DNA of 64,000 nucleotides from Verrucomicrobiia bacterium (GTDB taxonomy: Bacteria > Verrucomicrobiota > Verrucomicrobiia > Limisphaerales > Pedosphaeraceae), in contig DATAUW010000034.1 of NCBI GenBank assembly GCA_036268055.1, forward strand, positions 62,001 to 126,000, written 5' to 3'. This document shows positions 51,448-63,999 of the stretch, piece by piece (the first letter of the stretch is position 1; the number at the start of each line of letters is the position of its first letter). Below the pieces are notes generated by a model, which saw only the letters and a list, made by a program, of their open reading frames with translations, was not told the DNA's origin and made no database searches. Made by a program: the position numbers and the translations under genes.

Positions 51448-51903
51448 GTGCGCAAGTCGCCTTGCAGGGTAAGGCAGCACTGCCGCGTCAGACATTCCGA
51501 AGGACGCATCCACGCACTGCCCCCGAGGTAAAGCACCTGCCAACGCCGCCGTCGTCCCGCAGGGACTACCGACAATCTAGGGCATGTTAGGGGTGCGCTG
51601 CCGCGCTGCCGTCCGAAGTCCCGCAGGGACGACAGATCTTAGCCCAGCAATTTATTGCTGGGGTTTTATCCGCATCCATTCCAAGTCCCGCCAGGGACGA
51701 AAGAATTTGATGAAATGAACGCGGCGTACGCCTGGATGATTTCAAAAATATTTCTTTCGTCCCGTCCCCTGCGGACTTCGCACCGCGTAACAGCGCCACC
51801 TTGCCATTTGGGGGTAATGCGCGGACGCGCCCCATCCTGCGAGCCAGCTTTTTTGCAATTTGCCTTTGTAAGGAATTCAGATAAATTGCGACTAACCTGT
51901 AGC
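51448..51903. other. Repeat-bearing intergenic region before msrA
   Basis: 456 bases without a gene. 51461-51549 is degenerate repeat-like sequence; 51550-51780 is the first palindromic repeat cluster; 51781-51903 should carry the msrA promoter. Short frames encoding SRRDDR-like peptides across the repeats are not genes. Confidence 0.7.
51550..51780. repeat. Palindromic repeat cluster A (upstream of msrA)
   Basis: Contains three GTCCC-n-GGGAC hairpins (51554-51566, 51618-51630, 51685-51698). A 20-base stem-loop built on CCCAGCAA/TTGCTGGG at 51643-51662 is followed by TTTT. A right border at 51754-51780 is an inverted copy (CTTTCGTCCC, then GCGGACTTCG). The order hairpin, CAGATCTTAGCCCAGC stem, TTTT, about 20 bases, hairpin, GACGAAAGAATT, then ATGATTTCA and TTTCTTTCG matches cluster B, downstream of msrB. 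Confidence 0.85.
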
Positions 51904-52545
51904 ATGAAAAATATATATACGTTGATCGCGTTGTTTTCGCTTTTCTGCTGCGGATGCAGCGCGGAAGACCCCAAACCAGCCGATAATTCCACTTCCACCC
52001 ATATGGCCACCAACACAGTTGTGATTCCCGCGGATGCCGAAACCATCACTCTCGCCGCCGGTTGCTTTTGGTGCACCGAGGCGATTTTTCAGCAAATTCC
52101 CGGCGTGCTCAAGGTGACTTCCGGTTACACCGGCGGCAACGTCCCGAATCCCACTTACGAACAAGTCTGCACCGGCGACACCGGCCACGCGGAATCGTCA
52201 CAAATTGTTTTCGATCCCAGGAAAACCAGCCTCGAAAAAATCCTCGAAGTGTTTTGGGAAGCGCACGATCCCACGACGCTGAACCAGCAAGGCGCCGACA
52301 CCGGCACCCAATATCGCTCGGCGATTTTTTATAACAACGATGCCCAAAAGGAAATCGCCGAGAAATCCAAAGCGGCCGCCCAAAAGGATTTTTCCAAGCC
52401 CATCGTGACCGAGATCACCAAGGCCGGGCCGTTTTTCCCCGCCGAGGATTATCATCAGGATTATTATCGCCTGAACAAAAACCGGAACCCTTATTGCCGG
52501 CTCGTCATTTCACCCAAACTCCGCAAGCTCCACTTGCAGGAATAA
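51904..52545 (+). CDS. msrA: Exported peptide methionine sulfoxide reductase MsrA (lipoprotein)
   Basis: A 213-residue MsrA that reduces the S-epimer of methionine sulfoxide. ATG 51904 gives a lipoprotein signal (MKNIYTLIALFSLFCCGCSA, Cys near 18), so the enzyme is placed outside the cytoplasm. The catalytic motif is AAGCFWCTEAIFQQIPGV, followed by TSGYTGG, GHAESSQIVFDP, DPTTLNQQGADTGTQYRSAI and AEDYHQDYYRLNKNRNPYC with a resolving Cys. A partner msrB follows after 39 bases. The two genes are bracketed by palindromic repeat clusters. Confidence 0.95.
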   Translation: MKNIYTLIALFSLFCCGCSAEDPKPADNSTSTHMATNTVVIPADAETITLAAGCFWCTEAIFQQIPGVLKVTSGYTGGNVPNPTYEQVCTGDTGHAESSQIVFDPRKTSLEKILEVFWEAHDPTTLNQQGADTGTQYRSAIFYNNDAQKEIAEKSKAAAQKDFSKPIVTEITKAGPFFPAEDYHQDYYRLNKNRNPYCRLVISPKLRKLHLQE

Positions 52546-52584
52546 TTTAGTTCCTCTCTCTAAAAAAAATCGAAAGATAAATAT

Positions 52585-53160
52585 ATGAACATCTATTATG
52601 CAATCATCGGCGCCTTGAGCTTCGGCATCGCGCTCTCCGCTTTCGCCGCCGAGACGCCATCCGATAAATCCGCACCCGCCCAGGGTCCCACCGTCGAAGT
52701 CCGGTTGCTCGATACCAATGGAAAACTCGGCCCCAAAACCGCCGTACCCAAAGTCATCAAGACCGACGCCGAATGGAAAAAACAACTGAGTGCCGATGAA
52801 TATCGCATCACCCGCGCCAAAGGCACTGAACCCGCCTTCTGCGGCAACCTGCTCGATGTGAAAAAACCTGGCGTCTATTATTGCATTTGCTGTGGATTGC
52901 CGCTGTTCACGTCGGAAAGTAAATTTCATTCCGGCACCGGTTGGCCCAGCTTCTTCCAGCCGGTCGCTTCCGAAAATATCGCCACTCATGTGGACACCAG
53001 TTTCGGCATGGAACGCACTGAAATTCTCTGCGCTCGCTGCGACGCCCATCTCGGCCACGTCTTTGACGATGGTCCAGCGCCCACCGGTTTGCGCTATTGC
53101 CTGAACTCCGCCGCGCTGACCTTCAAGGAAGACAAGCACTTCAAAGACACGTCGAAATAA
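52585..53160 (+). CDS. msrB: Exported peptide methionine sulfoxide reductase MsrB
   Basis: A 191-residue MsrB that reduces the R-epimer of methionine sulfoxide. The N-terminus ([20 protein letters not shown], ending AFAAE) is a signal peptide. The zinc site is [11 protein letters not shown] and [14 protein letters not shown]. The substrate loop [12 protein letters not shown] and the catalytic Cys in [12 protein letters not shown] are intact. Paired with exported msrA, it would repair oxidised envelope proteins. A good terminator follows at 53259. Confidence 0.95.
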
Positions 53161-53179
53161 GGAAGTGCATCAGTCAGAA

Positions 53180-53243
53180 CTGTAGCGGCGGTCTATGACC
53201 GCCGAATCCTTCAGAAGATGGCACTCGTAGAGCGCCACTACAG
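53180..53243. repeat. Short palindromic element with inverted ends
   Basis: The ends CTGTAGCGGCG (53180-53190) and CGCCACTACAG (53233-53243) are inverted copies with one mismatch. Inside, CGGCGGTC and GACCGCCG (53187-53204) form a perfect 8-bp stem with a TAT loop. It looks like a mobile palindromic repeat rather than a terminator, since no T run follows. Confidence 0.65.
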
Positions 53244-53258
53244 GTTGAAATTTTCAAT

Positions 53259-53304
53259 GCGGTTTTAGGGCGATTCATTCTCCTTAAAACCGCTTTTCAT
53301 TTTT
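53259..53304 (+). terminator. Intrinsic terminator after msrB
   Basis: GCGGTTTTA (53259-53267) pairs with TAAAACCGC (53285-53293) as a perfect 9-bp stem, extended by GG/CC after one mismatch. It is followed by TTTTCATTTTT. It lies about 100 bases after the msrB stop. Confidence 0.85.
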
Positions 53305-54001
53305 GGCCGGGCGCATCTTGACACAGTCCCCCAAGATAAAACCCTGCCAGTGCCGCCGAAGTCCCGCCGGGACGACAGAAATTTGCCCAGCAATTCATTG
53401 CTGGGTTTTCATCCCTTCAACCCAAGTCCCTACAGGGACGAAAAAATCATCCGCCCCCGACCAACGCCATCCTTCGTCCATCCAAACCAACAAACTCCCG
53501 CAGGCCAAAATGGTAAGGCGGTGCTGCGTCGCCGCCGTCCCCTTTTTCGAATCCCAACCTTCACCATTCATGAACTTATGCTGCGCCGCCGTCCGAAGTC
53601 CCGCAGGGACGACCGAAAATCCAGCGCACGGTAGGGCTGCGCTGCCGCGCAGCCGCCCTAAGTCCCGTAGGGACGAAAGATCTTAGCCCAGCCATTTATG
53701 GCTGGGTTTTAGTTCGCTTCTAATCCAAGTCCCGCCAGGGACGAAAGAATTGGATGAAAATGAAAGCTGCGCGACGTAAGCCTCGATGATTTCAGAAGTT
53801 TTTCTTTCGTTGCTGGCGAGACTTGATGGAACGGGACAAGACCTACACTAAAGTGGTGAGCTAAAGTTCGGTCGTCCCTGCAGGACTTCGGACGGCGCGC
53901 CATCCTGCCATTTAGTGGCAGTATCAAGATGCGCCCTTTTTGGCTGCTTCTCAAGTTTGCTGCTTGTTCCACGCTAAAATCATGGTAGATTCCACGCCCC
54001 T
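53305..54001. other. Repeat-bearing intergenic region before prfC
   Basis: 697 bases with no credible gene. The region is dominated by palindromic repeat cluster B (53359-53890). The last about 100 bases, ending just before the GTG of prfC, should carry its promoter. Small frames across the repeats encode repeated SRRDDR-type peptides and are rejected. Confidence 0.7.
53359..53890. repeat. Palindromic repeat cluster B (downstream of msrB)
   Basis: Holds five GTCCC-n-GGGAC hairpins (53361-53373, 53426-53439, 53598-53610, 53662-53674, 53729-53742) and two 20-base stem-loops followed by TTTT (53386-53405 and 53687-53706). The second stem-loop has CCCAGCC/GGCTGGG where the others have CCCAGCA/TGCTGGG, a paired A-T to C-G change. 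The segment 53743-53810 repeats the right part of cluster A (GATGATTTCA, then TTTCTTTCG), and an inverted hairpin copy lies at 53871-53890. Confidence 0.85.
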
Positions 54002-61380: not shown

Positions 61381-63999
61381 TTACTTCTTCTTGGCCGTCC
61401 GGCTTTCGAGCGCCGCTTGCGCCGCTGCGAGGCGCGCCACGGGAACGCGGAACGGTGAGCAGCTCACATAATTCAAACCAAGCTTGTCACAGAACTTCAC
61501 GCTGTCCGGGTCGCCGCCGTGTTCGCCGCAGATGCCGAGCTTGATTCCAGGACGAGTCATATTGCCCTTCTCCACCGCGATCTTCATGAGCTGCCCCACG
61601 CCGACCTGATCGAGCGTCGCGAACGGGTTCTTCTTGAACACTTCGTTTTCCACGTATGGCATGAGGAACGAACCCATGTCGTCGCGGCTGATGCCCAGTG
61701 TCGTTTGCGTCAAGTCGTTCGTGCCGAAGCTGAAAAACTCCGCCGTCTCGGCAATCTCATTCGCCGTGAGCGCACCGCGCGGGATCTCGATCATCGTGCC
61801 GACCATATAATCAATCTTGATCTTCTTCTCGGCCATGACTTCCTTGGCCACGCGATGCACGATCTCCACTTGCAGGTCGAGTTCCTTCTTGAAACCAACC
61901 AGTGGGATCATCACTTCCGGCTTCACTTTGATCTTTTGCTTCGCCACGTCGGCAGCCGCTTCAAACACCGCGCGCGCCTGCATTTCCGTGATCTCAGGAT
62001 ACGCGATGCCCAAACGGCAGCCGCGATGTCCAAGCATCGGATTGAATTCGTGCAACTGTTCAACGCGCTTCTTGATGCGTTCGACCGGCACGCCGAGCTT
62101 CGCCGCGAGGTCAACTTGCGCCTGGCCTTCGTGCGGGACGAATTCATGCAACGGCGGATCGAGAAAACGAATCGTCGCCGGATGACCCTTGAGCGCCTTG
62201 AAGATACCCGTGAAATCCTCGCGTTGATACGGCAGCAACTTCGCGAGCGCCTTTTTGCGGTCGCCGACGTTTTCCGCCAGGATCATTTCGCGCATCGCAT
62301 CAATGCGATTGCCCTCGAAGAACATATGCTCCGTGCGCGTGAGACCGATGCCCACCGCGCCGAACGCCATTGCCGTCGCCGCCTGTTCGGGCGTGTCTGC
62401 GTTCGTGCGCACCTGCATGCGGGTCACCTTCGCGCACCATTGCATGAGCTTGAGATAATTCTTAAACTTCTCCGTCGCCTGCGCGGCCTTGTCGCCGTTC
62501 AACAACCCGGCGAGAATTTCTGAAGGCGCCGTCTTGATCGCGCCACCGTAAACCGTGCCGATGGTCCCATCAATCGAAAGAAAATCTCCTTCGTGATACG
62601 TCGCGCCCGAAGCCTTCACGGTCTTCGCCGCGTAATCAATTTCCAGCGCGCTCGCGCCGCAAACACAGACCTTGCCCATCTGACGAGCAACCAGCGCCGC
62701 GTGCGAACTCACGCCGCCCTTCGCGGTCAGGATGCCTTCCGCCGCGATCATGCCGCGCAAATCTTCCGGTGAAGTTTCGCTGCGAACGAGCAGGACTTTT
62801 TCGCCCTTCTCCGCGGCTTGCACCGCGCGATCCGCATTCATGTAAATCTTGCCAGACGCCGCGCCCGGACCCGCCGGCAAACCGGTCGCGATGACTTTCG
62901 CCTTCTTGACTTCGGCGAGGTCGAACACCGGCGCGAGCAGTTGTTCCAACTGATCCGCGGGATTGCGCAGAATCGCCGTTTCCCAACTGATCAAGCCTTC
63001 CTTGACCATGTCCATCGCGAACTTCAGCGCGGCCATCGCCGTGCGCTTTCCGTTGCGTGTCTGAAGCATGAACAGCTTGCCTTCCTGCACCGTGAATTCG
63101 ATGTCCTGCACGTCCTTGAAATGCTTTTCGAGGATGGAACGCACCTTCATCAATTCCGCGTAGCTCTTGGGCATCTGCACTTTGAGCTTCGCCACTGGCT
63201 CCGGCGTGCGCACGCCGGCCACGACGTCTTCGCCCTGGGCGTTGATGAGAAATTCGCCGTAAAATTCATTCACGCCGTTCGCCGGATTGCGCGTGAAGGC
63301 CACACCCGAACCGGAGGTCTCGCCGGTGTTGCCATAAACCATCGCCTGCACGTTGACTGCCGTCCCCCATTCAGCGGGAATATTATATTTGCGGCGATAC
63401 ACGATCGCGCGGTCGTTCATCCACGAACCGAACACCGCGCCCGCCGCGCCGCGAAGCTGCTCCCACGGGTCGTTCGGGAATTCGCGACCGGTGCGTTCCT
63501 TCACGAGCTTCTTGAAACGCTTCACCAATTCCTGCTGGTCTTCAGCCGAAAGCTTGGAGTCTTCGATATCGCCGTGATGTTTCTCATGTTTGAAATGGTG
63601 GATGACCGTTTCAAATGGCTCTTCGTCTTCGCCTTCTTTTTTCTGCACGCCAAGGACGACGTCGCCATACATCTGGATGAAACGACGGTAGCAATCCCAC
63701 GCGAAACGCTCATTCTTCGTCGCCGCGGCGAGCGAGAGAACTGTCTGGTCATTCAAGCCCAGGTTCAAAATCGTATCCATCATGCCCGGCATGGAATCGC
63801 GCGCGCCCGAACGGACGGCAACGAGCAACGGCATGCCTTTCGCATTGCCGAATTTGCAGTCCATGATCTTCTCCATGTTGGCGATGCCCGTTTCCATCTG
63901 CGCCTGGAGTTCTTTTGGATAGGTCTTCTTATGGTCGTAGAAATAGGTGCAGACTTCCGTCGTGATCGTGAAGCCCGGAGGCACCGGCAAACCGATGCG
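61381..63999 (-). CDS. ppdK: Pyruvate phosphate dikinase, start outside window
   Basis: The 873-residue visible part of PPDK, which interconverts pyruvate, ATP and phosphate with phosphoenolpyruvate, AMP and pyrophosphate. The frame is open to the window edge and begins [17 protein letters not shown], near the true N-terminus, so only about 20 residues are missing. [20 protein letters not shown] marks the nucleotide-binding domain. The catalytic His sits in [40 protein letters not shown] and [15 protein letters not shown] are from the PEP-binding barrel. The gene is complete at its 3' end, with a terminator. It likely serves gluconeogenic or glycolytic PEP metabolism. Confidence 0.95.

Follow-up and report, generated by a model that had tools for sequence, protein, structure and literature searches.

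The window analysed here, a stretch of 64,000 nucleotides from contig DATAUW010000034.1 of a Verrucomicrobiia bacterium (assembly GCA_036268055.1, contig positions 62,001 to 126,000), carries two clusters of palindromic repeats, one on either side of the msrA-msrB gene pair. The clusters belong to a repeat family of this genome and are unremarkable within it. In all likelihood they represent remnants and non-autonomous derivatives, similar to miniature inverted-repeat transposable elements (MITEs) or REPINs, of the terminal inverted repeats of a small HUH/Y1 transposon with the transposase signature Y---Q--HH, presumably mobilised as folded single-stranded DNA. Part of the repeat corresponds to Acido-Lenti-1 (Rfam RF01687), which has been catalogued since 2010 as a small RNA (sRNA) gene of Acidobacteria and Lentisphaerae, and for which the portion of PMC2864571 drawn on here gives no mechanism.

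End-units in the two clusters

Eight exact hairpins of the form GTCCC-N3/4-GGGAC occur in the window (at 51554, 51618, 51685, 53361, 53426, 53598, 53662 and 53729), all of them within positions 51550-53890, against an expected mean of 0.08 per window; none of 100 dinucleotide shuffles reached eight. The original prediction, made from the letters alone, had named the loops GCA, GTA, GCC, TACA and GCCA, and these are the loops present. Six of the eight hairpins are parts of three copies of one end-unit of approximately 89 nucleotides (nt), in which a GTCCC hairpin is followed by a linker ending in TTAG, a CCCAGC hairpin, a variable linker of approximately 20 nt, a second GTCCC hairpin, and the inner end GACGAAAGAA. 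In the second unit, U2, the foot linker of the central hairpin ends in TTTG rather than TTAG, and the inner end is GACGAAAAAA, one change away from the GACGAAAGAA that is exact in the other two units. The three CCCAGC stem-loops (51643-51662, 53386-53405 and 53687-53706) have TTTT 3' of the stem, as had been described, and the reported exchange at the seventh pair was seen as well, the pair being C-G in the third stem-loop and A-T in the other two.

The features of the clusters are listed below with their matches to RF01687, which covers hairpins 1 and 2 of the unit on the opposite strand (gathering score 37), and to R1, a full-unit model built from 95 aligned units of the window's genome only. 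R1 coordinates are those of contig C34.

51554-51566, plus strand: extra GTCCC hairpin 5' of U1, a mosaic part, from the exact-hairpin scan
51584-51614, plus strand: second-type, GTAG-like hairpin 5' of U1, seen in aligned genomic copies; a similar hairpin lies at 53630-53656, before U3
51616-51711, plus strand: unit U1, with inner end GACGAAAGAA; R1 match C34:113616-113711; Acido-Lenti-1 match 51617-51662, minus strand, 55.3 bits
about 51753-51784, minus strand: degenerate inner part of an inverted unit closing cluster 1, identified by eye; the direct-repeat family D4 (51710-51760 and 53760-53810) ends inside it
53359-53452, plus strand: unit U2, a solo end-unit with inner end GACGAAAAAA; R1 match C34:115359-115452; Acido-Lenti-1 match 53360-53405, minus strand, 47.4 bits
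53598-53610, plus strand: extra GTCCC hairpin 5' of U3, a mosaic part, from the exact-hairpin scan
53660-53755, plus strand: unit U3, which forms the left end of a miniature inverted-repeat element and has C-G at pair 7; R1 match C34:115660-115755; Acido-Lenti-1 match 53661-53706, minus strand, 51.9 bits
53796-53888, minus strand: inverted degenerate partner of U3; R1 match C34:115796-115888, minus strand, 49.7 bits, E 6.6e-8; inverted repeats I2 and I5

The partial inverted copy closing cluster 1 and the degenerate unit at 53796-53888 correspond to the predicted border sequence with an inverted end. Because U3 has this inverted degenerate partner, the two together (53660-53888) constitute a miniature inverted-repeat element of approximately 230 bp. 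Folded as single-stranded DNA, the three units gave z-scores of -4.3, -3.75 and -4.8 relative to shuffles.

The second-type hairpin reads, in many genomic copies, GGTAGGGC-TGCGC/GGAGC-TGCC-GCGCA/GCTCC-GCC, with the two stem forms (TGCGC/GCGCA and GGAGC/GCTCC) exchanged between copies. On contig C25 (locus L074), this hairpin and a GTCCC hairpin seem to be repeated at a 64-nt step.

Copy number and stem pairing in the genome

The genome (5.1 Mb in 41 contigs) contains at least 118 matches to RF01687, 114 of them above the gathering score (150 of 1333 candidates scored), and at least 128 matches to R1 (150 of 2066 candidates scored). Thirteen of the 118 units lie less than 700 nt from a contig start; the assembly is therefore probably interrupted by these repeats, and the copy number underestimated. 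The proposal of a mobile palindromic family is borne out by this copy number, by some inverted pairs, and by a parent element, described below, in which a transposase gene lies between two units.

Standard pairs occupy 98.7% of the 1615 pair cells in the alignment of 95 units, as compared to 95.4 +/- 0.3% in shuffles. The changes comprise 40 double changes (11.7 in shuffles), three one-sided changes such as G-U, and 21 unpaired cells, 15 of them in the third hairpin. In the central stem, pair 7 is A-T in 62 units and C-G in 33, and at pair 5 there are 91 units with G-C and four with C-G. In the last stem, 90 units have C-G and three have T-A at one pair. The set of 95 was derived from the 100 of the 118 units that had references (18 lay outside the listed loci) by removal of two near-duplicates and of three units that were truncated or without the third hairpin. 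Since this selection flatters the pairing figure, the count was repeated by simple pairwise alignment on all 118 units, truncated copies included, and 1954 of 2002 cells (97.6%) were found to pair, with pair 7 being A-T in 74 units, C-G in 42, G-T in one and unpaired in one. The compensatory change at pair 7 is real and general, and the earlier suggestion that structure as well as sequence is kept holds across the genome, where copies proved to be neither few nor often broken in their stems. The double changes, confined to three pairs, may reflect a few founder events that were copied many times.

In the consensus of the 95 copies, most central hairpins have TTAG as their foot, and the T run 3' of the stem lacks conservation (TTTnnn). 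The genomic copies are often mosaic, with other hairpins upstream and with many running downstream into CTTCTCATTAACCCCC..., a sequence that in the form CTTCTCATTAACCCCC...GGGGG also makes up the long inverted repeats of a second Y1 gene (L067:1612-1685 and 2132-2206). The presence of CTTCTCATTAACCCCC 3' of many Acido-Lenti-1 units thus points to the ends of two transposon families mixed in one mosaic. Relative to genes, as defined by crude open reading frame (ORF) calling, 37 of the 118 units are tandem, 17 convergent and seven divergent, 31 overlap a mechanically called ORF, and 26 were left unassigned. By the same crude calls, 16 of the units at tandem genes are on the same strand as the genes and 21 on the opposite strand, with no clear preference.

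A transposase gene between facing end-units

Five Y1_Tnp genes were found in the genome. One of these (C11:182161-182604, locus L066), encoding a protein of 147 amino acids (aa), sits between two inverted end-units that score 100.3 and 95.9 bits with R1, and whose inverted arms of 49 and 40 nt are 94 and 95% complementary. The outer edge of the repeats in this parent element falls where the most conserved block of the dispersed copies starts. The other four Y1 genes have different flanking repeats.

The 147-aa transposase matches Y1_Tnp (PF01797) at 108 bits and IS200/IS605 TnpA (NF033573) at 86.1 bits, above the cut-off of 55, but reaches 31.5 bits with the REP-associated tyrosine transposase family (RAYT, NF047646; REP, repetitive extragenic palindrome), for which the cut-off is 80. 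Its motifs DHVH, WQ and YIQTQQEHH carry the Y---Q--HH signature of subclass 1.2, and all 17 aligned family proteins retain the HUH histidines, the Y and the Q--HH without change. The nearest solved relatives of the protein are IS200/IS605-type transposases, the first being ISHp608 (2a6m, E 1.4e-13). Judged from its signature and from the tree described below, the family would belong to subclass 1.2, apart from IS200 (subclass 1.1) and RAYTs (class 2). A RAYT partner, which the original prediction had proposed to look for, was rejected because of this family score and because the one listed gene above the RAYT cut-off (L070 on contig C19, 83.1 bits) has other inverted repeats of its own. The RAYT-grade HUH domain of L070 (G000:C19:53420-53845) lies inside an open frame of 1117 aa, which is either a fusion or a long spurious frame. 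A search for relatives of the L066 transposase in viral contigs found none.

The association of such genes with the units extends to other genomes. Relatives were collected by protein similarity only, using an alignment of seven family transposases (A3), and the best 80 of 579 were kept. The signature Y---Q--HH is present at 78 of the 80 loci, and an inverted repeat between the two flanks at 69 (a count made without a control set). Within 200 nt of the genes (31.7 kb in all), RF01687 (E <=0.01) gave 56 matches, as compared to 30 in the 184 kb beyond, or 1.77 versus 0.16 per kb. Near-gene matches were found at 34 of the 80 loci, and on both sides at 15, with 46 of 49 gene sides in the orientation of terminal repeats (p 7e-11). 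With R1 (E <=0.1), near matches were found at 36 of the 80 loci and 45 of 47 sides were so oriented, and the union of the two models recognises three-hairpin ends at 49 of the 80 loci. As for the controls, RF01687 was found at none of 20 RAYT loci and none of 13 IS200-type loci, and R1 at one of the 33, there at E 0.093. Two of seven further HH-type loci, obtained by another route, carry RF01687 on both sides, and the comparison of 36 of 87 HH-type loci with 0 of 33 control loci gave p 9e-7 by Fisher's test. In a separate set of 18 loci, outside the 80-locus counts and searched at the gathering threshold, RF01687 was found on both sides of the own element and on one side each of L091 and L093. 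A.YAG foot precedes 92 of 210 hairpins (stem >=7) close to the 80 genes, as compared to 4 of 110 at greater distance.

In a tree of 134 proteins, built on few columns and with rough bootstrap values, 104 HH rows fall on one branch (100/99), and all 39 RF01687-positive rows lie inside it, scattered and in no single sub-branch. The 20 RAYT rows lie on one side of a branch (100/100). Ten of the 13 IS200-type control loci were used in this tree, the remaining three (L359, L362 and L365) having no usable frame.

R1 was also searched in seven other RF01687-bearing genomes, with matches in six. The best match outside the own genome (69.1 bits; G312:C46:9161-9259, or L244:1162-1260) is in a Planctomyces metagenome-assembled genome (MAG), approximately 235 nt 5' of the gene for the transposase most closely related to that of L066 (62% identical across 140 aa; paired with it in the tree, 100/86). 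The central hairpin of this sister unit is identical, letter for letter, to that of U1. RF01687 (E <=0.001, 150 candidates scored per genome) has at least 136 matches in Terriglobus albidus (L211), at least 89, 59 and 55 in the genomes of L201, L244 and L232, respectively, and from at least 4 to at least 47 in each of six other genomes of the ten. Among the matches listed for five other genomes, 33 of 35 RF01687 pairs less than 400 nt apart face each other like transposon ends, 27 of them (in four genomes) at a spacing of 138-153 nt and the other six at 216-327 nt. Short inverted pairs of units without a gene, by which REPINs and MITEs are recognised, are represented both by these pairs and by the element at 53660-53888. 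In a sample of the phylum, RF01687 was found in at least 82 of 288 genomes at E 0.001, and in at least 57 above the cut-off (20 candidates scored per genome). A rule by which the two outer hairpins always share one stem sequence holds in the window's genome and fails in many relatives, and was abandoned.

The window's genome is the sole genome of its genus, and comparisons of occupancy come from elsewhere. At one orthologous intergenic space, G301 has a unit pair like the RF01687 pair of G185, G295 has another three-hairpin pair (identified by eye), and G296 has a short empty spacer; occupancy here is species-specific, with flanks too diverged for nucleotide-exact comparison (one locus, nine genomes). 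G296 and G295, two congeneric species, have a complete element with an HH-type gene at one shared position, and the parent can thus be inherited for long. At the edge of a complete element shared by two species (L305:3454-4050 versus L311:4694-4710), one species has an extra gene of approximately 550 nt, absent in the other, which by eye resembles a gene for the RNA 2'-phosphotransferase KptA.

A number of observations weigh against the interpretation of the units as transposon ends. In the window's genome most copies are solo, RF01687 detecting one close facing pair besides the parent element, and 16 of the 118 units have a short inverted inner end, located 43-52 nt inside in 14 cases. At its C-terminus the L066 protein departs from its relatives, and this end may be changed. 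A nucleotide-exact empty site was found neither in an 18-genome genus, where the region is replaced rather than clean, nor at the one locus compared in nine genomes, and no target rule emerged. The sister gene at L244 has units upstream only, the nearest in an unexpected orientation, so that this locus does not represent an intact parent. The genome of Terriglobus albidus has no R1 match, despite the abundance of RF01687 there, and the full unit is thus not conserved everywhere.

Similar reservations apply to the set of 80 loci. The seeds of A3 were picked in part for their three-hairpin flanks, which introduces a mild bias towards that plan. An inverted repeat was not detectable at 11 of the 80 loci (again without a control set), neither RF01687 nor R1 recognises a near-gene end at 31, and many of the flanking matches are below the Rfam gathering score. 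The orientation is wrong on 3 of 49 and 2 of 47 gene sides, contributed by L220 (both sides), L244 (in both counts) and L208 (once). L220, from an Armatimonadota MAG, has RF01687 on both sides of an HH-type gene in reversed orientation, and is the sole such locus of the 80. The flanks are short at some of the control loci, and family score alone was used to class two of the 13 IS200-type loci (L359 and L362). In addition, most loci are from MAGs, and the phylum labels include errors or recent transfer. For instance, the transposases and ends of L192, L193 and L194 are nearly identical, while the MAGs bear the names Akkermansia, Verrucomicrobia and Deltaproteobacteria, which points to a binning error or a very recent transfer.

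Known systems and alternative explanations

The transposase resembles the subclass 1.2 TnpA(Y1) enzymes of Quentin 2018 (PMC6006769) in the signature Y---Q--HH, the motifs DH[IV]H and WQ, a length of approximately 148 aa and a low gene copy number. In the part of that survey drawn on here, subclass 1.2 is described as generally without typical terminal IS200 structures, without shared insertion sequence (IS) properties, as 'no' for REPs, and as occurring mostly in Cyanobacteria and Bacteroidetes. The loci described here differ in their three-hairpin ends (49 of 80 loci) and in being mainly from Verrucomicrobiota, Planctomycetota and Acidobacteriota. The three-hairpin ends contradict the published description of subclass 1.2, not its sequence definition.

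A parallel in arrangement is provided by the TIRtrons, whose repeats share the motif GGGGWSAS (Di Nocera 2013, PMC3733652, in the passages used here), and in which a Y1 gene likewise lies between long inverted repeats that are also dispersed singly, in pairs or in groups. The 26 TIRtron transposase (TIRYT) examples fall, in the available account of PMC6006769, in subclasses 2.1 (20 examples), 2.2 and 2.5, with none in 1.2, and it is this account rather than a sequence comparison that sets the present enzyme outside the published TIRYT groups. Repeated inverted repeats have also been reported round one Koribacter transposase (PMC3733652, same passages). These are probably another family, because the available part of PMC6006769 places no TIRYT in subclass 1.2.

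The REP and REPIN systems of E. coli and Pseudomonas, with their RAYTs, share with the present family dispersed palindromes, a tetranucleotide foot, inverted pairs and one flanked enzyme gene. The clade of the enzyme, the three-hairpin unit of approximately 89 nt and the.YAG foot set the present family apart, although this foot resembles the GTAG foot of REPs, which is described as a guide for cleavage (PMC6006769, in the part cited above). In common with IS608 and ISDra2 (IS200/IS605), the family has an HUH/Y1 enzyme. The ends of IS608-type elements carry hairpins that do not form terminal inverted repeats, whereas the two ends here are long inverted repeats of each other.

A transposon whose ends fold as single strands would account for these arrangements as follows. 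The parent would consist of an HUH/Y1 gene alone between two facing end-units, in which the central hairpin is preceded by the YAG foot, whereas end-units elsewhere are found singly, in direct arrays, or in short pairs of inverted orientation. If the transposase acts like those of IS608 and E. coli (TnpA(REP)), it would bind DNA folded as a single strand, with the foot tetranucleotide guiding cleavage, and the cut would be made through the transposase tyrosine. The single-stranded intermediate, including that of short unit pairs, would then be moved, with solo units arising as decay products or from one-ended events. Because the transposase is proposed to move a folded single strand, only paired copies would move and the palindromes would stay paired. 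Binding, cleavage and movement are proposed on analogy, whereas the unit, its copy number and pairing, its flanking of the transposase gene, its orientation and clade specificity, and the sister-element match are observed directly.

Whatever their origin, the units might now be domesticated for a host role, for instance as replication or recombination sites. REPs in general have such roles (PMC6006769 and PMC3733652, in the parts drawn on here), and a complete HH-type element shared by two species of one genus could be read in the same way. The distribution in the phylum sample is patchy, however, with at least 82 of 288 genomes positive at E 0.001, and such domestication is considered unlikely.

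It is also quite improbable that Acido-Lenti-1 is a genuine family of small RNA genes that has multiplied, with its presence round Y1 genes being secondary. Such a family would agree with the rating of 'y' (probably RNA) in Table 1 of Weinberg 2010 (PMC2864571, in the part available), with the covariation of the stems, and with the Rfam type (Gene; sRNA). Covariation, however, is expected of DNA hairpins as well, and one-sided changes such as G-U, at three cells against 40 double changes, are rare. The copy number, at least 118 here and at least 136 in the L211 genome, the inverted pairs at similar spacing, and the flanking and orientation at HH-type transposases likewise speak against small RNA genes, as do the absence of a clear strand preference relative to same-direction genes (16 versus 21) and the unconserved T run. 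A scan for the sigma-70 consensus found no promoter-like site at the units and one elsewhere in the region, where 1.6 were expected. The small-RNA source envisaged originally retains the Rfam classification in its favour, while the genomic arrangement speaks for transposon ends; individual copies may be transcribed.

Movement of the units as classical GTAG-type REPs by a true RAYT of this genome is highly improbable. GTAG-like hairpins of other types do adjoin the units, and the genome does have a gene above the RAYT cut-off, but that gene has different inverted repeats, the 20 RAYT loci of the phylum are without RF01687, the foot of the central hairpin is mostly TTAG rather than GTAG, and the flanked gene is IS200-like. 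Least tenable of all is a role of the stem-loops in terminating transcription or stabilising mRNA in the msrA-msrB region, for which they would have been kept. The first stem-loop, together with its T run, is scored as terminator-like, and TTTT also follows the other two, but the four terminator-like sites compare with 3.8 expected in shuffles and include just one unit stem-loop, the T run lacks conservation across the 95 copies, the units again show no clear strand preference relative to genes, and copies are present at many unrelated loci. No evidence was found to link the repeats to msrA-msrB function, and this neighbourhood appears to be incidental. The original interpretation is supported in part, in that the mobile family finds support, the RAYT partner is not the best fit and the mRNA-stabilising element finds no support.

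Other features surround the two genes. Directly 3' of msrB (53181-53244), CTGTAGCGGCGGTC...CACTACAG forms two inverted GTAG-footed hairpins that look like a classical GTAG REPIN of a different family. Beyond it, an 18-nt imperfect inverted repeat followed by a T-rich stretch (53256-53296) could be the msrB terminator; it was not flagged by the terminator scan, and cluster 2 lies further on. MsrA (51904-52545) most likely starts at ATG 51904, with a lipoprotein-type signal, LFCCGC, and not at the TTG of the longest ORF, which extends through the repeat cluster.

The 46-nt Acido-Lenti-1 model spans hairpins 1 and 2, read on the opposite strand, whereas here it is part of a unit of approximately 89 nt that has a third hairpin and flanks a transposase. 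Under the transposon interpretation, Acido-Lenti-1 probably corresponds largely to hairpins 1 and 2 of transposon ends and not to an sRNA gene. It is fairly likely that the motif is the single-stranded DNA recognition end of an unrecognised HUH/Y1 transposon family found under eight phylum labels, whose subclass 1.2 enzymes have been regarded as lacking a DNA partner, and that the covariation of its stems, interpreted until now as evidence of RNA, reflects co-evolution of DNA hairpin and transposase. In the literature searched (titles, starts of abstracts, and passages, with subscription papers, figures and supplements outside its scope), no link of Acido-Lenti-1 to a transposase was found, which does not establish absence from print. 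An older remark places the motif near group II introns in some cases. For Tannerella protease genes without an adjoining mobile element, downstream Acido-Lenti-1 'ncRNAs' have been suggested as regulators (2026, PMC13298647, in the part available); on the present interpretation, these motifs could be traces of mobile elements.

The correspondence described here would pair a Rfam family with a class of DNA-cutting enzymes, both of them orphans so far. Stem covariation can stem from DNA hairpins that are kept by a single-strand transposase, and an RNA role is therefore not to be inferred from covariation alone. If this is true of Acido-Lenti-1, other 'orphan' RNA families known by covariation alone may be similar.

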